Made by a program: the position numbers and the translations under genes. The notes under the pieces were generated by a model, which was not told the DNA's origin, made no database searches, and saw only the letters and a program-made list of their open reading frames with translations. A DNA stretch of 64,000 nucleotides. Origin: Chiua virens (Eukaryota > Basidiomycota > Agaricomycetes > Boletales > Boletaceae). Below, one piece after another: positions 17,333 to 59,988 of this stretch (the stretch's first letter is position 1; each line of letters begins with the position of its first letter). The stretch is taken from the NCBI GenBank assembly GCA_019787685.1, contig JAHNUO010000013.1, forward strand, positions 124,001 to 188,000, given 5' to 3'.

Positions 17333-19251
17333 TTGTATGCTACGTTGTTGCACTGAATCCCCATGTCTTTGTCTAGATATTGACATACCGTGTGGACTTA
17401 CCCTTTACAAGTACATTATACCTTTGGAACTTCGCTGTCTTGCCTGGGCAGCTCCCAGGCACGGATATGTTGTTTTAGTTGACGATTGATTTGCTCTTTT
17501 TGTTCCCGCGACGGTTGGCAATATGGAACTGTTACTTACCTTACTTGTAATCACCCAGTTGCTGGGTCGTTGATCACACGTGCAATGTCCATTGCGTCTC
17601 ACATTCTATTTTGCTCGGTGTCTTGGATAGCATAAAACGTCCGATGGGCCTGGGAATCATTGACAGAACAATGGCAACATTATCTTTGAATAGCCGAGTA
17701 GTGGGAAGATCACGCACGACGTACCTGGTGTTACCTGTGCGTCGTTCAAAATGGATGCCATTGCACCCACCCGCAGCCGCAGCTGGGAGTTCGAGAAACG
17801 GGTACATGTGGTTCTCCGTCGTCCAGGGAACATGTCGTCCTCGGACGGGGTTCGGATGCCGAGTCGACATGTGCCTGTGAGGATGTCCGAGTCGTATGAA
17901 ATGACAATATGCAAATCGGTAGAAGAACACCGTCCTCGGAACTTGAAGATGGGTGCGCTCGGAAAGGATTGGTCGTGACGCCACTGATCACGCAGTATAT
18001 GATACTCGTTTTGGGTCCTGTTCTGAGCGTGATGTGCATTGTGCACGGATCACGTTGTCAACATGCGAGTGAGACGTCCCGTAATCATGACGAGCGAGTC
18101 GGCCGATACCGTGCGGGTCGCCATCGTGAGCTAAAGACGCGATGTCGTCATGACTTTTGCCCACTTCTCTGAATTTGAACTGCACAAGGGCATTTGTCGA
18201 GAGCTTTCAATCCTAAAGGGCAGCCTGAACTCGCTAGGTTATAGGCCAAAGGGGAATCGTAGGGGGCAAGATATCTCCCAGCGGCCCGGATTTTCACACT
18301 CCGCTCTTCAATAAAGTTGGACTCGGACCAAACTCGGACTCCGGTATGTATTCATGAAGGCTCGTTGGACGTCGAACGTTTGAGCTTCTTCAGCTTCAGG
18401 TGTGTTTCTATATCGTCACTGATGACATAAACGTTCAGATCTTTATGCAGGAATCCAGCGATTTTTTTCCGCTGATACAAGAATCACTGAATCATGATGA
18501 TATATGTCTGTGCTTCAGTGCGAGTCTATGTAGCCATTTTCTCCAGGGCAGCCGGTAAGCTAGCGGATTGCAAGCTCAGCGCGCTCATGGAGTTTCTGTT
18601 TACTTCAGCCGTCAAATGATGTTGAGTAATTATCCGCTTTAAAGCCTTGCAATGACGCAGCGTCTTTCCTGTCCGAGTAGTGGGGCTAGGGTGGGTAAGT
18701 TACAGGTAACACGCTTTTGACCATTTCGGTAGGTGGCATGGTAGTAGGGATAGCAGCGAGGTGGATGCTTTTGCGTTCCTCTCCGTTCCCTCTTCGTTCT
18801 GCTTCTGTCTTTGTGGGAAGTGTTACCCGTGACACGACAACTTCCGCTTGGTGGGGTTTTGCCTGGATGTCGGCCATCCGATCATCGGTTGATGGTAATG
18901 CATCAGGTGAAACAAACTAGCGGCATTCCATCAACTCGACGCTACCGTAGTTGTTCACCGGTCATCAGCGCATCAACCTTGTTTGGTCGGGTCGAGTATT
19001 ACCGGCTCTGCACGCCCGTCTTCCGTTTGATTGAGCTCCGTCGCTGATACGCATGGGTGGGACGGTCTTGTGGGCATAGGTTAGCGTCAATAGGGTGGGC
19101 TGATGCCGTACCGTTGTCCGGTGTGCGTGGCACACAGAAGCGGTCGCAGTTGCAATGTGGCAAGAGTTGTCCAAGGGTTATGATGTAATGGGACTGTGGT
19201 TGGTGTGGCGGTGCCGAGCTACATCTGCTCGCTCGGCGAAAGACTGGAATC
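17333..19251. other. Gene-poor stretch
   Basis: Open frames of 60-135 codons occur on both strands, the longest on the minus strand at 17657-18046 and 17574-17984. Their sequences are rich in Arg, Ser and His, with no domain, signal or splice structure I recognise. One minus-strand frame contains AHVDSASE, faintly like the L-E-x-H-V-D motif of the F-box-like relics, but nothing around it supports that. Confidence 0.35.
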
Positions 19252-20312
19252 ATGCAACTCTTTCCTGATCTTGTCCTATCTACATCCATGGCATCCTCCC
19301 CGTCTACTGACTTGCAACCCGAAGAGCTCATCCCCGAGCAGAAGGCGTCCATACCTTGTCTCGCTTTCTGGCCTGATGGCTCTCGATTAATTGCCGTCGT
19401 TGGTTCAGGGTTACAGATCTGGAACATCAAGGAGAAAACCCGTGAAGGTGAAGCTATCCGTGGCGGTTTCTTCACCAACTTTGCCACCGTCGCCGTCTCC
19501 ACCGACGGCAAAAAGTTCGCCACAGGTGGTACCTACAGAGACGGCGGACAAGTCCTAATCTGGGACAGCAACACACGCCGCACCGAGCATACATTTGACA
19601 AACCTGCCACCAGTCGCTGTCTCTGTGTCGTCCATTTTAGTAGTGACACTCGCTTACTGGCATATGCATTCGAGAGGGAGTACATGTCGGACAGTTTGGA
19701 GGTGAGGGACGCCACGGACGGGAGCTGCGTTTGTGTATTGGAGCCTCGGAAAGGGAACACCCGATGTACGCGATTCTCCCCGGACGACACGCGGTTGGCA
19801 GCATGTGGCGTTTGCATTCAGATTTGGGATTTAGCGAGTGGACGACCCTCGCTCGAGATCAAGCACCGAGCGCATTCGTTGGAGTGGACCAAGGATGGGA
19901 TGCACGTCGTCGCCAACAACCTTGCCAATGGGTCGCTTATGATGTATGATGCTCGCACCGGCGCCCAGATACGCAACTGGCGTGATCGCGCTCCCGGTAT
20001 CGCCGCACCGCACTTGTGGCCATACATTTGCATGTCCGTTTCCCCTGATGGTCGTTATCTGGCCAGTGTGCGTGGAAATACGGTGCATGTTTGGGATCTG
20101 GAAAACACGAGCGAGGTGGCGCGGTACTCTTTCCCACGTGACATGTTCTGCGTCGCCTACTCCCCAAATGGCGATTTCATCGCTTCTGGCGCTTATATTT
20201 GTAAAGTGCCGAGGGTGCACGGTTCCCCGGTATGTATTTCTTATCGTGTCCCTATTGTTCGCCCTAATCCAACTCTCTACAGGCGGTAAATGCTCTTCTC
20301 AATGTAGGCTAG
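19252..20312 (+). CDS. WD40-repeat protein
   Basis: Exon 1 runs 19252-20229 (or from the second ATG at 19288, MASSPSTDL, which I prefer); a 53-bp intron (20230-20282, GT-AG) joins HGSP to AVNALLNVG and a TAG at 20310. The protein is about 330-345 aa and made of repeated blades: LQIWNIKEKT, VLIWDSNTRRT, LEVRDATDGS, IQIWDLASGR, LMMYDARTGAQ and VHVWDLENTS, each preceded by a segment like FSPDDTRLAA or VSPDGRYLAS. Six clear repeats suggest a single propeller, perhaps closed by a degenerate seventh. Such proteins act as scaffolds; no partner can be named. Fungal genomes carry many WD40 genes derived from NLR-like proteins, but no NACHT domain lies upstream here. Confidence 0.8.
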
Positions 20313-23339: not shown

Positions 23340-24480
23340 TTCCTAATGAACCACCCCGATTCCCTGATACCCAAGATCACTAAAGGTAAAAGAGTCCGTT
23401 TTCCGACAAAAAGGTGAGAGCCGTTCGAACGAAAAAAAAAAGTTTGCCTGCAGCCAGATCAATGGCGCGTGGCTGCAAGACGGAAAACGAATGTATACTG
23501 GTACAATTGCAGATGGAAACGAAGATGTAAGCGCGACAACAGCAATGCTCGATTGCATGGTTGCAAGAGACGAAAGCATAGGACTGAAGCTTACTATGCC
23601 ACATAAGTTTACGTCTCTGGAAGACTCGAGGAAGAATACTCACAATGTGGGTGGCTTATGCGACGACACAGTAGTTGTTGCCCGTCGACCAATCGCTAGA
23701 GTTATCGGTCGGTATTTGGGCTGCTTCCTGGTCTGATGCAGCAGGAGCGTTGGATGCCAAGAAGCTGAAGGCGGAGAATACGTCCATTGGTGGGTACGAT
23801 GTGAAGGATGTGTCGCAGAGAAGTTGCAAGGGCCTTTGAGAGACGAAGACGAAGACTGGGATGACACTGACGGAAGCCATCTCGATAACTGATATATATA
23901 CGTTTCGCTTGGACCTCCGAATCGGCCGCAATCAGAGAGAGACTCGACAAGAAATGCTTGTCAAAATTCGGGTCTTGTTGCATTAGGCGGACATACCGGC
24001 GGATGGAGCCTATAATAGATTTTGCTTATTGTCTAGGTGCTACATATTACAGAAATGCCGGCTTCTTACCATGGGGACAAAGAGCGTCGGGCTTCTCAGC
24101 CTCCATCTGTGCCATGCGTCTCCATCTGCGAGAACAAAAAGAGTGTGACTCATTGCGAAGCCAAGTGTGAATGAATATGCTCGGGCCGAACAAATCCCAA
24201 TGCCATCATTTGATGCCAGTGCGAACACGGACGTCAGCCCTGCGACAGCAACGTGCAAAACAACCAAAATGGAGTGAACTAGGAACACGCAGGGGGGAAG
24301 CTGAGTCAGGTGGAGGTGTGGTGGATTGTCCGGTCAGCGAGGACCATGGAAGAGTCTTGGTCTTGTGTGAGAGCTGGACCCGAATATGATCGATTCTAAT
24401 TGTGTCGGGTGCACAGCCACAAATCATCTCCAACACTACGCTTGCCATTTTCGGATCATGCCGAAGCATACCACCTCATC
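23340..24480. repeat. Duplicated block, copy 1 (pheromone-bearing)
   Basis: This block matches 26110-27270 at a spacing of about 2.78 kb. Shared landmarks in the same order include a GCGCGTGGCTGCA-like stretch near 23465 (GCGCATGGCTGCA near 26227), the pheromone-type ORF, the 5' leader with GCAAGGGCCTTTGAGAGAC, and ACTACGCTTGCCATTTTCGG near 24434 (same string near 27240). Similarity is highest in and around the ORF and lower at the edges, so the ends are approximate. Confidence 0.7.
23656..23787 (-). CDS. Putative lipopeptide mating-pheromone precursor (CaaX: CVVA)
   Basis: A 43-residue ORF starts MDVFSAFSFLASN, continues through an acidic middle (SDQEAAQIPTD) and ends GNNYCVVA. Length, the MD-x-F start, the acidic processing region and a C-terminal Cys-aliphatic-aliphatic-X box together are the layout of basidiomycete pheromone precursors (for example the Phb/bbp/bap types). 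In those, the Cys is prenylated, the last three residues are removed, the Cys is carboxymethylated, and the N-terminal part is cut away, leaving roughly the last 9-15 residues as the secreted signal for a STE3-type receptor. Here the mature part would lie within about the last 14 residues (SSDWSTGNNYC). A TATATATA element (23893-23900) lies about 106 bp upstream on the coding strand. The sister ORF at 26434 keeps the coding frame and the CaaX box although the DNA has diverged. No receptor gene is in the window. Direct evidence is pattern only. Confidence 0.72.
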   Translation of the reverse strand: MDVFSAFSFLASNAPAASDQEAAQIPTDNSSDWSTGNNYCVVA

Positions 24481-26109: not shown

Positions 26110-27270
26110 ATCGGCCTGATTCCCATATATAAATTACCCCAGCAGGCAAGCAAGTGTCCGTCTCCAGACGAAAAATGTAAGAGCCATTCGAACGAACATA
26201 GCTATCTGCAGCCACATCAAAGGCGCATGGCTGCATGATGGAAAACGAATGCATATTGGTAGAGTTGCAGATGCCAGTGAAATTGAAAGATTGGATAAGC
26301 GTGATGACAACGATGCCCGATCCTGATAAGCGCGAAGATGGTTGCGAAAGACGAAGGCATAAGACTGTTGGAAGCCCATGCTAAATTTACAGTTCCTGAA
26401 GACTCGAGAAAGAATGCTCACAATGTGGATGGCTTATACGACAACACAGTAGTTGTTACCCCCTGACCAATTGTTAGTATCGGTCGGTATTTGGGCTGCT
26501 TCCTGGTCTGATGCAGCAGGAGCGTTGGATGTCAAGAAGCTGAGGGCAGAGAATACGTCCATTTCTTGGTTATGATGTAAAGGATATGACGCAGAGAAGT
26601 TGCAAGGGCCTTTGAGAGACCAAGACCAAGACTGGGATGACGTTGATGAGAGCATCTTTTGACACTCACATATATACGTTCCATGCTCCTCGGACCTAGT
26701 CCGTAGAAACAATTGAAGCCATATTCATCGATGAATAGACAGCTAGCGTGTGCGTCAGTCAGATTTACCGACAGACGGTCGGATAGAACTTGTTACATGG
26801 ACCTGCTTATTGTGTATGCTACCTTTGCAGTAATTCCGGCTCTTCACCATGGGGACGAAGAGCCGCTGGCTTCTCTGTCGCCATTTGGGACATGCGTGCC
26901 CGTATGCAAAACAAAAAGGATGACATGGCAAAGTGAGGTACGAATGCACGTGCACGTGAACAAACGCCGATGCCACTACTTGATACCTGGATGTGAACTC
27001 AGTAATTCACCATTCCTCTTCCGTACCTGGCCCTGCTGTCAGTTTTTTAACCCTGCATGTTCCTAGTTCACCCCAATATTTGTCTGCTTTGCTCAGTGAT
27101 GCTCGCATGGGCTAGCCTTGCCGCGGCGGTCTTGACAGTCTTTTTGTCTTGTGTGTGAGGGTTGAATAGACTCAGTATGGTATAGATCTAATTGTCTCGG
27201 GGAGACTCGCACAGCCACGTGTTGTCACAGCATTCAAACACTACGCTTGCCATTTTCGGAACATTTCGGA
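26110..27270. repeat. Duplicated block, copy 2 (pheromone-bearing)
   Basis: Partner of 23340-24480. It carries the second pheromone-type ORF, the matching 5' leader, and the shared ACTACGCTTGCCATTTTCGG string near its right end. Copies are in the same orientation. Confidence 0.7.
26434..26562 (-). CDS. Putative lipopeptide mating-pheromone precursor (CaaX: CVVV)
   Basis: A 42-residue ORF starting MDVFSALSFLTSN, with the same acidic middle as its sister at 23656 and the end SGGNNYCVVV. Compared with the sister, the central segment NAPAASDQEAAQIPTD is identical, while the part just before the NNYC is changed and one codon shorter (TNNWSGG against NSSDWSTG), and the last CaaX residue is V in place of A. 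Change focused on the presumed mature peptide, with the frame and CaaX kept, fits two pheromones of different specificity or two allelic forms retained side by side. A TATATA element lies at about 26671, at nearly the same distance from the ATG as in the sister. As for the sister, the assignment rests on sequence layout, not on experiment. Confidence 0.72.
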   Translation of the reverse strand: MDVFSALSFLTSNAPAASDQEAAQIPTDTNNWSGGNNYCVVV

Positions 27271-38195: not shown

Positions 38196-41095
38196 TCATG
38201 ATGCGGCGGTTTGTTGCTTCTTCCTGAACCGAAGCAACGGTGCCAGACCAGACGGCGCACACGCCTTCTTCAAAAAGTCATGCTGGAATGCGGCGCGTAG
38301 GTCAGACAGACGACAAGTACAACATCCGAGGTACTGACCGACAACAGCTCGTTCGAGTTGGCTCGACTTCGCACGTCCACACACAGACACACGCTCAAGA
38401 AGCTCTTGAGCTCTTTACTCAGCGCCTCAGGTTTCTTCAACGTCGGTGTCCCGTTAGTTGCGATCAAGTACAGTGCCTTGAGGGGTTCTTCGTCCAAATA
38501 TGGGGGCTCGTTTTCGATCATTTCGATTGCCATGATACCGAGGGACCAAATATCGACCTTGGCGCCGTACTCCTTTTGCTTGACGACCTCGGGCGCCATC
38601 CAGTAAGGTGTACCGACCATGGTCGCTCGCTTCGACTTTTGATCGGTGAGCTTGGCACAGAAGCCAAAGTCGGCTGAAAGGGGATTAGCGAGGAACGAAG
38701 ACCAAGCGAGGCTAAACGAGACGCACTGATCTTGACACGGCCTTCCGCATCCAAGAGAACGTTATCAGATTTGATGTCACGGTGGATGATGGATTGACTA
38801 TGCAGGTGGCATAACCCTTTGCACGTCTGTGGAACAGCGATCAGATCAAACGAGCTAGACCCATCTAAAGAGGCTCACTTCCGAACATATGCTCGAGATT
38901 TGATCCTCCTCCAACGCGTTGTTTTCTATAATGTCGGTGAGTGCGCCTCCCTCCATGTACTCCATGACCACCCAAAGCTCGGTGTTCTTGAGGAGATACG
39001 AGTCCAAGAAATTCACAATGTTAGGATGTTGAGATTCCTTCATGACCAGAATCTCATTGACGATGAGTTCTTTTCTCGGTTGGTGTGAGAGATCCATCTC
39101 TTTGATAGCAACCTTTCTGCCATTGGCGAGCATCTTCGCGACAAAGACGTGTCCAGATGCACTGTATCGTGTGACTGAACACCTCGGACTAACGGCAATC
39201 GTGCCAAGACTCACCCTTGACCAACCTTCCTGATTTTACTGTATAACGTCTTTGGATCTTCTTCGGACACAACCGAGCGAAGTTTATCCATGATCTGTAC
39301 TTCGGTCATAGTGCTGATACGCTTCTCCTTCTCTTTTGGCTTCTCGAGCTTCTTCGCCGCCTCAGCAACAGCGGGATTATCGCCCTCGGGTGCGGTGACA
39401 GTCACATCAGGGGGAGGCACGTCCTTCTTCTTCACCGGTTGTAATGGCTTCACCAGGGGAGGACCGACAAGTGCTCCAGCAAGCCCAAGAGCAGCCTGCG
39501 TCGCCGGAAGTGCGGTTGCAGGAGCCGATTTAGTGGAGGCGGTAACAGAGCGCTCGACGTCTTCCTTGGCCAATAGTCGCTCCCGCTCTCTCTCCCTTTC
39601 CCGTTCCTTCTCCCGCTCTCGTTCCCGCTCTCGTTCTCGCTCCTTTTCCTTCTCACGTTCGCGCTCCTCTCGCCGTCGTTGCTCCCGCTGTTCGCGTTCC
39701 TTGTCTCTGGGTGCGTCCGGGGAGGGTTGTGTGTCCAGGGAAGGCTTCGGAGCGCCCTCAGGGCCGGCGCGAGCCTGCGCTCTCGCACGTAGATCGGCCG
39801 TCGACGGCGTATGATCGGGAACAGGCGGTTTCGGGACGGCAGGCGCCGGGCGCGTTGCTGTCAACAACGGACGAGGCGGTGCAGGTCGACTGGGCTGAAG
39901 CGCTGTCGAAGCCTGCAAGATTGCGGGAATTGCGGGTCGCCCCGCCGTCCCCTGGCCGGCAGAGGAAATGGTGTGTGCGTGTTGGGTATGCGAGCTGCTG
40001 ACGAGCTCGGCGGCGCGGGCTGCAGCGAGCGCGGTGGAGGAAAGGCCATTTTGTGGGGAGGAGGCGGTGGGAGTTTCGGCGGGTGCGCTCTCCTGGCGCT
40101 TTGGACCTGGAGGACGGGCATCGAGAGGAGAGGGTATTTTGCCGAAGGTTGTACCGCCGAGACCCGTGCCGGCGTTGAACCGCGGGGGCGGGTTGCCGTC
40201 GACCGAAAATGCGACGAGTGTTGAGGCGCCAGAGGTGGTCGAGGCGGAGCGTGTGACGGGCATGCACATCTCTTCCATCTCGCGTTTCTGATGATCGGTG
40301 TAGAACTCGAGCACATCGAGCACGGCTTGTGGGTCCTTTGCATAGTCCTCTCGGGTGATGGCTGATTTCGTGAGTAGCTTGCTCCATTGCTCGGGCATGC
40401 CCTGGATATAACAGAGTGCCATCAAACATCACGGTGGGCGATCAAAGCTGATCAAAGACGTACAGTGAAGGCGCCAGAGATGGGATCGAAGCCGACGTGT
40501 ACCTTGTGCACAAAGTTGGTTGGGTTGCTGACGCCCATCAACGGGCTGCGAGAGTAAATGTCATCTTGCCAGCCGTAGAGTTCCTCGTCATTTTTGAGGG
40601 CAAGGTGGTATCGCTTGTCCCTGGTCTCCAAGAGTAGACAATAGGGTTTGATATCGACTCGTTCGATGTTGGTTACGTCGTGCAGACTGATCGCGCTTTG
40701 GATTGGGGAAGACTGGAGGGGACATGAATGGAGGAGGAGAGCACATGGATGATCGTACACACCTCGGTCTTGTGTACAGTCAGGGTCTCGCCCTTCAAGA
40801 CGAGCCATTTTCTCAAAAACATGAAACTGGCAAAACCTTCTTCCTTAAAGCTGACCATGCCATTGCGTATGACCTGAGAGTTCATGGAAGTCTCTGAATA
40901 TCGAATCGGAGAACCGCCGATGCCAGTGTAGTCTGAAGCGTAGGATGAGCCGGATGAGAAGGAAGGGGTGTAAGCCGAGCTCTGGAGAGCGCTATTGTAC
41001 TGCACTGAAGATGGTGAATCGGTCGCTCTGCGTAAGGGAGCCTGAGGGGCAGGTCTGGAAGGTGTCAGGTTGGTCGCGGTGACGTTGAAGGCCAT
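38196..41095 (-). CDS. cla4: p21-activated protein kinase, Cla4 type (PH-CRIB-kinase)
   Basis: Start ATG at 41095 ([17 protein letters not shown]), stop at 38196; several short introns. Domains in order: a PH domain (from [20 protein letters not shown] through [20 protein letters not shown] and [17 protein letters not shown]), a CRIB/p21-binding motif ([20 protein letters not shown], then [10 protein letters not shown]), a long Pro/Ala/Ser linker with a strongly charged Arg/Glu-Lys run (about 39575-39700), and a Ste20-group kinase domain: [71 protein letters not shown]. The PH domain before CRIB separates Cla4 from Ste20. Family role: effector of Cdc42/Rac GTPases in polarity, septation and hyphal growth at the plasma membrane. 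All catalytic motifs are present. The C-terminus ends [11 protein letters not shown]. Confidence 0.92.
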
Positions 41096-50290: not shown

Positions 50291-53200
50291 ATGAGCTCTC
50301 TTCGCAACCACCGTGTCATCATCGCATCCCTCTTCCTCCCCACTACAGCCGTCCTTGGAGAATCGAACCCACCCACTCCCAACCTCACCGCCCAGGATCC
50401 AGATATTGTTCCACCTCCCCTCGTCGTAAAGCCCAGCCCGTCCCTTCGCCATAAACCCTCCAAGTCTGTCGGTGCAAATCTCCCGTTGAGGAGCATCGTC
50501 GAGGATCTCAAGGTGCGCCCCTAACACCCCTCTTTCTTCCCGGCTCACCTTGCCGGCCCTGCCAGTCCCGCGCCACAACACCCATCACAACACCCCCAAA
50601 TGAAACTACCAATAATCCCTTCGCAAAGTTCAGCAGTATCGCAAGCCCGAGGTACAACGGTAGTAGCACACCCACCAATGGTATCTTTTCCGACGCGAAT
50701 AGTTGTGGTTGCGATGCCCCGCCTCCGTCTTCTCCCATTGGACCTAGTCTCGACCGCTCGTTCACATTCTCGTCACGGCCACGCAAGTTCCAGACCACCC
50801 ACACGGACGTCCAGCACACAGCCCGTCTCCAGCGTAAACAGTCTCGGTCATCCTCCCGTCGCCCCACAGACGGCTACCCTTCCCCTCGCAGCACTGAAGG
50901 CTACATCCCTTGGCACACCGCACCCAATTGCCATTGCAACGGTGGTCTCAAGAATGCCATAGATAGCGTCAAAGACAGGCTCACCCAGAAACTCTTCGTC
51001 GGCACCCTTGGGAACAGCACGGATGGATTCGGCCCGGGTCTACGCGACAGTATTGATTTGCGAATGCGTCAGTTGTTCGCGAGCGTCCCTGTTTGGATCC
51101 CAGACGCCGAGTTCGAAAGCTGTTACGACGAGTTTTGTCACCAGGTTCGTCGTCCCTAGAATCTTTCCCATCACAAGAGCTCACACTTGTTGCGATTCAG
51201 GTGCTCTGGCCTTGTCTGCACTATGCGGTTCCGGATGCTCCAAAGACGAAGCTCTTCTACGAGAGCGCATCGTTCAAGCAATATATGTCCGTCAACAAGC
51301 GCTTCGCGGATGTCATCATCGCAAACTACCGCGAGGGCGATATTAGTTCGTCATCCCCGTTTTTCTCCATGGGACTATCTTCTCATCTCGCGTCACAGTC
51401 TGGGTGAATGATTATCACCTCTTGCTCCTTCCAGCACTCCTTCGTGCCGAACCCAAACTCGCCAATGCCCCTATCGGGTTTTTCCTCCACGTCGCTTTTC
51501 CCTCTTCCGAAATCTTCCGGTGCCTCTCTGTGCGCGAATCGTTACTACGTGGCCTCCTCGCAGCTGACCTCGTCGGCTTCCAAACCGCGAGCTACGCCCG
51601 TCATTTTAGACAGACGGTCAGCCGCATCCTCGCGCTTGAAGCCCTTCCCAAGGGTATCCAGGTTGAGGGCACCTTTGGGAGTAGCACCGGGCCCCACAAG
51701 GGCCGGTTTGTGGATGTTGGGGTCTTCCCCATGGGTATTGATGTCAATGCGCTTCGGGAGAAGAAGTGGGTTTGCTTTCTTCTAGGACGGACCCCCGTTT
51801 TGGTCAATAACGGACACTGACATGATGGAATAGACGTGAACTTGATGTTCAGTATTGGGTTCAACTTCTTAGGCAACGCTATGCTGGCATGAAGATGATC
51901 GTCGGGCGAGATAAGCTCGACGAGATTCAGGTTTGTTCTTAAAATGTATTGAACCATTACCGTCTAAAATTGTCGTAGGGTGTCAGGCACAAGATCGAGG
52001 CCTTTGAACGTTTCTTGAAGAAACATCCCGATTTCCAGGGCAAGGTAAACGAGTCTAAGCATGTCGACGCCGATTTTTTCTCACGTGTGGATACGTAGGT
52101 TGTTCTCATCCAAGTTGCACTACAAACCACCGAGTCCAATGAGCTTGCTGGTGGTGTTTCAGATGCCGTCGCTCGCGTTAACTCCGCGTTCTCGACGTTG
52201 ACCTACCAGCCCATCGTCTTTTTGCACACACAAGAAGTGACGTTTAGCCAATATCTCGCGTTGTTGACTGTGGCGGATGCATTTTTGATCACCAGTTTAC
52301 GGGAGGGTATGGCTCTGCGGACACACGAGTTCGTAGAGTGCCAAGAAGGGAGGCACAGACCGCTCATTCTGAGCGAGGTGCGTTCTGTATGACGGACCCA
52401 CCGCTGAGACTAACGAATTCTCTTTAAGTTTACCGGCTCGTACAGTTACTCGGGATTCCGTTCTTGCATTGCGATCAACCCGTATGATACACGTGGCACT
52501 GCGAATGCCATTCACCAGGTGAGGATACCTACTTTGCAAGTATATGACAATGGCTTACGCAGGCCAGGCGTTAACGATGAGCGATGCTGAGGCGTTGTCC
52601 CGTTGGGAAGATTTGCACAATCATGTTGTCACCCAGACTGCACAGGCCTTTGTCACCTCGTTCCTCACTCGTTGTCTACGTGCCAACACTGAGCATACGG
52701 CTCAGACGGACCTCTCCATGGTCCCCGTCGTCGACATGGGTCGCATGCTCCCACGTTATAAACACACTTCAAAACGACTATTATTACTCGACTTTGAAGG
52801 TTCTGTCTGGATCCGCGACATGTCCCGTGCTGGCCTTCTCGCGCCATTTGAACCTCAGCCACAAGCACTCGAGTTGTTCAAACGCTTTTCCGATGATCCG
52901 CGGAATGAAGTATGGTTGTTGAGCGGGTTACCTGTCAAAGGCGTGCTCGATAAGATTGCTGCGGCCGTTCCTGGCGTGGGTATTGTTGCGGAAAATGGGT
53001 GTTTCATCAAGACGAGAGAGACCAAGAAGACACCTGCGACATGGTTCGATATGGTTCCGAATTTGAATTTTACGTGGAAGGGTCCCTGCATCGAGATTCT
53101 CAACTACGTACGTCCACCCTTTTTCCCGCACTATACTATTGATCCCATACGTGTTTTACTGACACTTTTTCAGTTCACCGAGCGCACGTCTGGTTCGTTC

Positions 53201-53692
53201 GTCGAGGAGCGCGAAGCTTCGATAGTTTGGCGTTTCTGGACCGGTCCCACAGACGACTGCTCTAATCGTCAGTGGGCCCGTCGTCAAGCTGCCGAAGCGC
53301 AGAACCACATCTTTGACAGTCTTGGCGAACGCTACGGCCTCCGTATCATCCCCGGCGCTAATTCGTTCCTCGTCCTGCCCAACAACATCTCGCGATCGAC
53401 TGCTGTAGGCGCAATTCTACACCCCGGCGGACCCGCACATTCTCCCCGAAGCGGTTTATCGGGGATGGTGAACGGAAACGGAATGGAAGAGGACGTGGAC
53501 GGGCATGATGGAGGAAGTGACGAGACACGAGGCGTGTTTGCGTTTAGCGGTGACGAGAAGCTGTTGAGGCGGTTGAACGAATTGGACAATGCGGAGACGG
53601 TCTCGACCAGTCGCAAGGGCACGGACGCCAAGTGGAAGCTGGACCCGAAGGACGTCGTGTCAGTGTTGAGCCTGCTTGCGGGGGTGCCATGA
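50291..53692 (+). CDS. Trehalose synthase complex regulatory subunit (Tsl1/Tps3-like)
   Basis: Start MSSLRNHRVIIASLFLPTTA at 50291, stop at 53692, with about nine short introns. After a Ser/Pro-rich N-terminal extension comes a GT20 trehalose-6-phosphate-synthase-like domain: VLWPCLHYAVPD, VWVNDYHLLLLPALLR, GFFLHVAFPSSEIFRCLSVR, ADLVGFQTASYARHF, GVFPMGIDV, LITSLREGMALRTHEFVECQ and TGSYSYSGFRSCIAINPYDT. A HAD phosphatase-like domain follows: LLLLDFEGSVWIRD, VWLLSGLPVKGVL, GIVAENGCFIK. The first HAD motif reads D-F-E-G-S where trehalose phosphatases have D-x-D-G-T, so catalysis is doubtful. F-L-H-V-A-F-P-S-S-E, with A for P, and the long N-terminus are those of Tsl1/Tps3, which hold Tps1 and Tps2 together and tune them. 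I therefore call it a regulatory subunit, not an enzyme. Trehalose protects against heat, drying and osmotic stress. Confidence 0.82.
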
Positions 53693-57799: not shown

Positions 57800-59988
57800 A
57801 TGTCTGGTGCGCCTCCAACGATTCCATCTAGTTTACAAGTCTACAAGTACGTTTTCAATTCTAAACACCATCAAGTTCCTTTCCAAACTTTTGCCGTAGT
57901 TCCTATGTCGAGGATCCAAAGTGGCAAAGCAAATTCACTGCCATCTGGTGCTCGCTCTTGGGCGTTGTCATCGTTATTTCGCTTCCGTCGCTCGTGCTCG
58001 CATTGCGACATGGACGTGGGCTCCCAGGTTTCTTTGGGGTCACTGGAGGCGCTGGCTCGACGGTCTATTCCGCCGTAATAAGCGAGGAAAAGGAGACCGT
58101 TACTCCATCCTCGCCAGTATCGTCAAATCGTCGTAGCAAGATAGTAACCTATTGGGACGCGGTGGTGTCCGTACGACAATGGACTATGCCATACTTCGAA
58201 CTGAACGCAGGACAGAGTACGCTTTCCCCAAAGGTTTACGTCCTCCCTGATCGACTGACGAGGTGTTCTCTTTTTCTTCAAAGTTGTCATCCTCGCAGCA
58301 GATCTCACCATCACATTGGTGTGTATCATCAAAGATGCACCTCTTGTATCCAATCCAAATCGAGCCGGTACGTTTGGTTTTGCGTGTTCGATACCTCGCC
58401 ATTATTGAGAATCTTACTGTTCCAGGTTTCCTTGCATTTGCACAATTACCGATCGTATTCCTTTTCGCAACCAAGAACTCAATTTTATCGTTCCTCCTTG
58501 GACCCGGACATGGTTATGAGAAGCTCAACTTTCTGCATCGCATGGCTGGGCGCGTCATGTTTCTCGCTGCCGCCATCCACGGTGGCCTTTGGATTCGTAA
58601 TCACATCCAATACGGCCTTCCCATTCTCGGTCCACAGAAAGAAACATCTGGCGTAGCCTCGTTTGCTATGCTCGCCTGTATCGTCCTCTTTTCTCTCCGA
58701 CCAATTCGACGATGGTGTTATCAAGTGTTCTTTGTACTACAGTGCGTCCAATCTGTCACGTTTTTACTGCGAACGTGTGGCATTGACATTATGTATGCGC
58801 GATCTAGTGTGCTTACATTTGTCGGATTTTTTATTTGCGTGTGCTATCATTCGATATATGCATCTCCGTGGATATTCCCACCGCTGGCATTGTACGGCAC
58901 GGACTTATTCTTGCGTCTGCTTCGCTACCGGTTCAAAAATGCCACGCTCACAGCCCCCGACCATTTTATGACGCTCGTATGTCTATTTGATACCGCATAT
59001 GGTCATTCACGTGTGTACTTACTATGTGATAACCATGTCAGGTGCGCGTTCACGACTGCGACGAGGGGTGGGTCGCAGGTCAGCATGTCTGTCTGCGTGT
59101 GTTTTTCTCGGGCCGTCTCCTGGAGAGTCACCCGTTGAGCATCCTCTCCGCCCCGCCCGCGTACTCGTGCATTTCTAACCCGGGCTTACTCCTCGGTGTG
59201 CGTGTCGATGGCGACTGGACGCGTGCATTAAATGCGTTTGTCCGCAGGGAACAGGGGAAGTTTGTAGCGAAAGATGAAGCATGCGAGGACAAGGACAAGG
59301 ACAACGTGTCCGTCCCCGTTCACGTCATGATCGATGGTCCATATGGGGGGTCGAGCATCGACCTCGGGCAGTATGAGAGTGTGTTGCTCGTGTCGGGAGG
59401 GTCTGGTGTCACGTTCACGCTGGGTCTATTGGACGATATAGTTGGTCGATGTGTCAAGTTGCGTCGTCGTAACGGCGAACGAACGCGACGCATCGAGTTT
59501 GCGTGGTGCATTCGGTCGTATGGTGAGTCACCGTCCACGTCTCTATACACATCTCAATGACAAGCGTTGCACGTTGGTTAGGCGCCATACGTTGGTTTGC
59601 GCCCATGTTGGTTGACATCGCGACGACGGCGATCAACGCGTCCATGGATCTCCATATCACGATCTTTGTGACGTGCTTGTGTGATCCGGAAGCTGTGCCT
59701 GTGATCCCGAACTGCGATGTGGTTATGGCTCGGCCGTCGGTCTATGAGTTACTTCAAGACTTGACTCGCCCTCGGCGTGTGTCGTCTTCGGCGAGCTCGG
59801 AGCTGGGTTCAGTGGAGGAAAGGGGCGGGTTTGAGTGTCCTGAATACTGTGCGGGAGGCGTCGCTGTTTGTGCGAGCGGACCGGCAAGTTTGACAACGGA
59901 CGCGCAAAATGCTGTCGCGAGGATAGGTGTCGTGCGAGGGGCTGAACTGGGTGGCATGGCGATTCACGTTGAGAATTTCACATTGTAG
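57800..59988 (+). CDS. Ferric/cupric reductase (FRE family)
   Basis: Seven exons with six short introns. Start MSGAPPTIPSSLQVY; the join gives YVEDPKWQSKFTAIWCSLLG, then several membrane spans. The heme-binding core has FLHRMAGRVMFLAAAIHGGL (His 13 apart) and a second His pair, HVLTFVGFFICVCYH; the first His of this pair is coded by a codon split by the fourth intron (CA/T). The FAD-binding part follows as CDEGWVAGQHVCLRVFFSG and LESHPLSILSAP, and the NADPH part as MIDGPYGGSSIDLGQYESVL with LLVSGGSGVTFTLGLL, ending VCASGPASLTTDAQNAV and a stop at 59988. The family moves electrons from cytosolic NADPH across the plasma membrane to Fe(III) or Cu(II) chelates. All key motifs are in place, so the enzyme should be active. 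The adjacent copper transporter suggests a role in copper, or copper-dependent iron, uptake. Confidence 0.9.

Follow-up and report, generated by a model that had tools for sequence, protein, structure and literature searches.

Two described groups of short lipopeptide precursors are closest to the genes reported here. The first comprises the B-locus precursors of the Boletales. As described in PMC5473757, all genomes examined in that study keep their pheromone precursors close to receptors, and an ICMT homologue directly adjoins the B locus in every Boletales genome but that of Pisolithus. The Rhizopogon precursors given there (Rvphb/RVphb) adjoin receptors, are 48-60 aa long, contain 8-11 Asp/Glu, start with MDxF in 11 of 11 cases, and end in CIIS, CIIA, CVIS, CVII, or CVIV; we count 11 distinct precursors, as two of the 13 in Table 4 are repeats (PMC5473757). 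The second group is the "non-mating-type pheromone-like" class of C. cinerea, L. bicolor, A. bisporus, and P. cinnabarinus, whose copies are described as similar to one another (PMC4101180) and whose tail is G-rich, the consensus printed for L. bicolor being GGGSGNNAYC (PMC8305134). Precursors of this class are described as short, with an MD..F-type start and a CaaX end; those of A. bisporus have 44-54 aa, and their genes are scattered and show no linkage to the receptor that is orthologous to the PR locus (PMC8305134, PMC4101180). Expression, with a 3' UTR intron, is reported for at least three of the four A. bisporus genes (PMC8305134).

We analyzed a window of 64,000 nucleotides (C13:124001-188000, on contig JAHNUO010000013.1) of the 48.3 Mb Chiua virens assembly (Boletaceae, Boletales); coordinates without a contig prefix are positions in this window. 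Most ectomycorrhizal boletes cannot be crossed in the laboratory. In this group, each well-supported precursor set aids the reading of mating biology, because gene finders often overlook pheromone precursors.

A tandem pair of predicted pheromone precursor genes

A preliminary description of the window had placed a pheromone precursor of 43 residues, with an MD-x-F start and the end NNYCVVA, at 23656..23787. The coordinates are correct, and the residues are seen as described in a frame on the minus strand, which the description had left unsaid. The plus-strand reading of 23656-23787 was ruled out by an internal stop. A second frame of the same kind, which had been missed, lies in tandem with the first. 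We refer to the two as A and B.

23656..23787 (C13:147656-147787), minus strand: predicted pheromone precursor gene A, 43 aa and stop TAA, MDVF start, NNYCVVA end
23895..23900, minus strand: TATA box of A (TATATA), 113 bases ahead of the ATG
23788..23860, minus strand: leader of A, strongly conserved with that of B, with a 1-bp indel between the copies
23584..23643, minus strand: candidate 60-nt intron in the 3' UTR of A (GTGAGT...CAG), acceptor picked by alignment
23390..24217, minus strand: duplicated unit containing A, 72% identical to 26152-26987
26434..26562 (C13:150434-150562), minus strand: tandem paralogue B, 42 aa, MDVFSALSFLTSNAPAASDQEAAQIPTDTNNWSGGNNYCVVV, 83% identical to A
26671..26676, minus strand: TATA box of B (TATATA), 114 bases ahead of the ATG
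26365..26421, minus strand: candidate 57-nt intron in the 3' UTR of B (GTGAGC...CAG)
26152..26987, minus strand: duplicated unit containing B, tandem partner of 23390-24217
19189-20286: WD40 gene, left of A

The translation of A, MDVFSAFSFLASNAPAASDQEAAQIPTDNSSDWSTGNNYCVVA, is a single open frame of 43 codons followed by TAA. Its only Cys is located in the CaaX box. The "acidic middle" ascribed to this peptide is correct, but the acidity is mild: the peptide contains five Asp/Glu and neither Lys nor Arg over its entire length. In its predicted layout, a pro-region (MDVF...AQIPTD) would be followed by a mature region within SSDWSTGNNYC and by the CaaX box, CVVA. No stop-to-stop frame of at least 130 codons was found between 22234 and 27876.

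Scanning the window for frames of 30-90 aa with the MDxF...CaaX layout detected two, A and B. In 150 dinucleotide shuffles of the window, one such frame appeared in total, and never two in the same shuffle. A CaaX end by itself says little, since about three frames with a CaaX end after any M arise per shuffled window; under a similar but slightly wider CaaX rule, the real window contains eight.

A four-copy family under protein-level constraint

Searching the genome with the peptides revealed four copies. The two outside the window, found by similarity and likewise absent from the preliminary description, are the following.

C13:122001-122135, minus strand: paralogue Z, 44 aa, ending in SSGNDCVVS, 1.9 kb left of the window
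C4:2244367-2244495, plus strand: paralogue C4, 42 aa, ending in NGTNYCVVA, on another contig

Identity to A decreases from the 83% of B to 58% in Z and 43% in C4. All four copies have an MDxF N terminus, and their lengths (43, 42, 44, and 42 aa for A, B, Z, and C4) and CaaX ends (CVVA, CVVV, CVVS, and CVVA) are similar. The positions invariant across the family (A numbering) are M1, D2, F4, S5, A6, D19, I25, N38, C40, V41, and V42. C4 is the weakest member: it was matched with E values of 0.145 from A and 0.013 from B, and the reverse search from C4 gave 0.184 and 0.016, with Z not among its matches. Because these matches are weak, the kinship of C4 also rests on the common layout. Its surroundings were covered over 10 kb.

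Comparisons with the divergent copies Z and C4 show constraint at the protein level. When the same substitutions were placed at random, the observed number of identical residues was equaled in 1 of 5000 trials for A-Z, 6 of 5000 for B-Z, 0 of 5000 for A-C4, and 1 of 5000 for B-C4, in trials that preserve the source base of each change and treat sites as independent, for four pairs that share sequences. A stop codon was present in 67-72% of the random trials for the divergent pairs and in none of the four real copies. The NG86 dN/dS values calculated for two of these pairs were 0.34/1.32 (A-Z) and 0.43/1.52 (B-Z). A versus B alone displayed no protein-level constraint, with 1649 of 5000 random placements as good as the observed one. 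Measured in 60-column steps, the A and B units are 87-92% identical across the leader, the frame, and roughly the next 30 bases, and about 35-80% identical elsewhere. Conservation of the leader and of the 3' flank thus equals that of the frame, and the A-B pair by itself does not show protein-level selection.

Protein database searches with A and with a four-row alignment of the family returned no homologue and no matching annotated protein from a database that includes Chiua virens proteins from C13. Such a search relies on shared exact words, and an identical annotated peptide would have shown up. The absence of A from the annotated proteins agrees with the experience in Rhizopogon, where only a CaaX script is reported to have recovered about half of the precursors (PMC5473757). 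A text search of the literature found no paper pairing YCVVA with "pheromone." The kind of gene, an Agaricomycete lipopeptide pheromone precursor, is already known, and these copies were missed by annotation. We also queried the Chiua genome with three of the 11 distinct Rhizopogon peptides. This gave no matches, which shows little because the peptides are so short and divergent.

Promoter, start codon, and 3' UTR

A TATA box precedes the frame in all four copies, at -113 (A), -114 (B), -71, and -129 from the ATG, and AACGTATA is common to the three copies on C13 (A, B, and Z). We considered a longer protein initiated at an upstream ATG (MASVSV... in A, MLSSTS... in B). This candidate was rejected, since the 1-bp indel in the conserved leader means that the upstream ATGs of the two copies do not share a frame relative to MDVF, which leaves MDVF as the likely start.

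Downstream of the frame, candidate 3' UTR donors are found at +13 after the stop in both A (GTGAGT) and B (GTGAGC), with an acceptor at the same aligned place, and we infer 3' UTR introns of 60 and 57 nt, respectively. At the same donor place, Z carries GCGAGT, a nonstandard donor, which would give an intron of 60 nt. In C4, GTGAGTAG is no nearer than +59 after the stop.

Processing motif and domain matches

A charged cleavage pair (ER, EH, DR, DE, etc.) about 10-15 residues before the CaaX box is described as usual, not universal, in such precursors (PMC3140503). A literal charged pair 8-15 residues ahead of the Cys is absent in A, B, and C4, while Z has NR. By the same rule, three of the 11 distinct Rhizopogon precursors also lack one, whereas the paper's own statement is that an "ER" motif is found in all of them (PMC5473757). 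A [PL][LVTI][DE] step located 10-14 residues before the Cys is shared by all four Chiua copies, where the distance is 10-12 residues, and all 11 distinct Rhizopogon precursors. In 5000 residue shuffles of each Chiua precursor, the step occurred at that place in 23, 47, 89, and 67. We regard the step as a lead, because it was chosen after viewing both sets and because paralogues are not independent.

Against the PF08015 cut-off of 22 bits, A scored 8.5 (E 5.7) and B scored 16.4 (E 0.02), and neither Z nor C4 was matched. The Chiua copies are below the cut-off and are therefore not filed as PF08015 members. As a control, all eight Rhizopogon precursors scanned (of the 11) matched at E <= 0.057, and four of the eight passed the cut-off. 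Running PF08015 against the genome yielded no matches, in a search in which the control was also silent.

The weak or absent Pfam match, the missing charged pair, and an A-B leader as conserved as the frame could be taken to indicate that the frames are relics, or small intracellular prenylated proteins, and not exported signals. We consider this very improbable. The divergent pairs are constrained, no stop interrupts any of the four copies, each of them has a TATA box, and the start, the [PL]x[DE] step, and the CaaX end are in common with published pheromone precursors. We are highly confident that A, B, and their relatives are real lipopeptide pheromone precursor genes. The pheromone-type reading proposed in the preliminary description gains from the family, the constraint, the TATA boxes, the conserved leader, the Boletales-like layout, the presence of STE3 and ICMT genes in the genome, and the lack of a matching annotated protein in the database searched; A itself has no literal charged pair and no passing PF08015 score.

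Under this reading, the predicted transcription, processing, export, reception, and role of A and B would be as follows. Both genes, whose coding part has no introns, would encode farnesylated lipopeptide pheromone precursors of 42-43 aa, made in the cytosol. Judging from the motif, the Cys of CVVA or CVVV would be farnesylated, the last three residues would then be removed, and ICMT would carboxymethylate the Cys. A protease may cut near the conserved IPTD, giving a Gly/Asn-rich peptide of about 9-13 residues, e.g., SSDWSTGNNYC-farnesyl-OMe. After its presumed export, the peptide would be recognized by at least one of the STE3-type receptors that this genome encodes. It would probably act through the shared pheromone pathway, in fusion, fruiting, or the upkeep of the dikaryon, and would probably not set mating type.

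Receptors and mating loci

STE3-type receptors elsewhere in the genome had been proposed as a check on the pheromone reading. The STE3 model gave 23 exon-level matches in the genome, which we grouped into seven genes.

C13:673-693 kb: four STE3 genes (STE3 model matches)
C2:2217-2220 kb: two STE3 genes (STE3 model matches)
C7:361 kb: one STE3 gene (STE3 model matches)

The window contains none of them, the best receptor match in C13:104001-198000 having an E value of 0.27. The receptor nearest to A and B, at C13:673075, is on the same contig at a distance of about 520 kb, which argues against a mating-type role of the two genes. The ICMT model matched the genome 14 times, including three matches among the receptors at C13:670.4, 671.6, and 681.7 kb. 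Because ICMT matches are located there, as beside the B loci of Boletales (PMC5473757), we place the B (P/R) locus most likely at C13:670-693 kb. On C6, homeobox matches (C6:706.5-714.2 kb) adjoin an M3 peptidase at C6:716-717.5 kb, which we take to be the arrangement of an A locus with MIP. The A locus (not to be confused with gene A) is therefore probably at C6, off contig C13. There is a further homeobox match at C4:398 kb, and there are further M3 peptidase matches on C16.

We searched the receptor regions for pheromone frames with scans that detect unspliced coding regions of at least 25-30 codons with usual ends. Over the 70 kb of C13:652001-722000, they detected no CaaX-ending frame that starts with MDxF or M[DE]. 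Under a wider rule (M followed by D, E, S, T, A, or Q), C13:662001-712000 contains four frames, and the 20 kb around the other receptors contains one at C2 and two at C7; none of these starts with MD, and by eye all are unlike pheromones. An MDxF frame at C13:677648 was discarded because it continues upstream and lacks a CaaX end, and none of the reading frames within range contains a CaaX-stop. Outside these regions, the genome was covered by similarity to A, B, C4, and three Rhizopogon peptides. The interval C13:670362-693064 itself holds the four STE3 genes and three ICMT matches and no recognizable pheromone frame.

Linkage and class of the family

The three copies on C13 are 11-44 kb from a kinase gene and about 520-550 kb from the receptors, and the fourth copy is on another contig. 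The kinase gene is a neighbor of the pheromone genes, outside them and 11.6 kb from B.

38196..41095, minus strand: PAK-type kinase gene, CLA4/Ste20-like, with P21-Rho-binding and protein kinase domains; ends set by eye

In Pleurotus djamor, CLA4 is described as adjoining the B locus or lying close to it (PMC4136793). This neighborhood, the position of A and B on the same contig as four receptors, and the F. velutipes report of a B locus whose receptors are separated by about 180 kb (PMC3140503) would suit a split P/R locus, perhaps held together by low recombination, in which A and B are true B-locus mating pheromones. In addition, since no pheromone frame was found in C13:652001-722000, the C13 receptors would need ligands from elsewhere. 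Nevertheless, we think such a split locus unlikely: the copies are mutually similar, one of them is on another contig, and 520 kb is far for a single locus. The kinase is a hint at most: CLA4 is reported to be unlinked to the B locus in F. velutipes (PMC3140503), and in P. eryngii it did not turn up next to the B3 region (PMC4136793).

Instead, the family probably belongs to the non-mating-type pheromone-like class, which we favor because the copies resemble one another, we found no receptor close to any of them, and the tail is of the GNNYC kind. The Chiua WSGGNNYC resembles the L. bicolor consensus by eye, the comparison with that class being with consensus tails printed in the text and not with full sequences. 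The Chiua precursors differ from the class in their length of 42-44 aa, in that A, B, and C4 have no literal charged pair, and in that their 3' UTR introns are predicted only. The Boletales B-locus precursors share with them the MDxF start, the small size, and the CaaX end. However, the Chiua peptides are shorter than those of Rhizopogon, have fewer Asp/Glu (4-7), and end in CVVA, CVVV, or CVVS, and A and B have no receptor nearby. In Chiua, pheromones and receptors are apparently apart, whereas the Boletales of PMC5473757 are all said to keep them together.

What is new is the four-copy family, together with the apparent separation of pheromone genes from the receptor cluster in a bolete. It is possible, although we would not yet favor it, that the P/R locus has come apart, leaving the receptor cluster without a recognizable pheromone gene, and that the B system no longer controls mating type and has become self-signaling, as discussed for Agaricus bisporus. 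If true, the separation of receptors from the known pheromone genes predicts a breeding system under the HD locus alone.

Other observations

Two near-identical 39-aa frames, MSCRKLMAIDYLGTIL..., are located 5 kb apart beside the receptor cluster, at C13:703332-703451 and 708460-708579 on the minus strand, and are perhaps exons of a duplicated membrane-protein gene. ICMT matches of equal score occur in pairs at C28:136941 and 168171 and at C44:30084 and 63087, and may be haplotype copies of one region. Within the window, a trehalose-phosphatase domain (52523-53689, plus strand) and a ferric-reductase domain (58251-59135, plus strand) mark ordinary genes.
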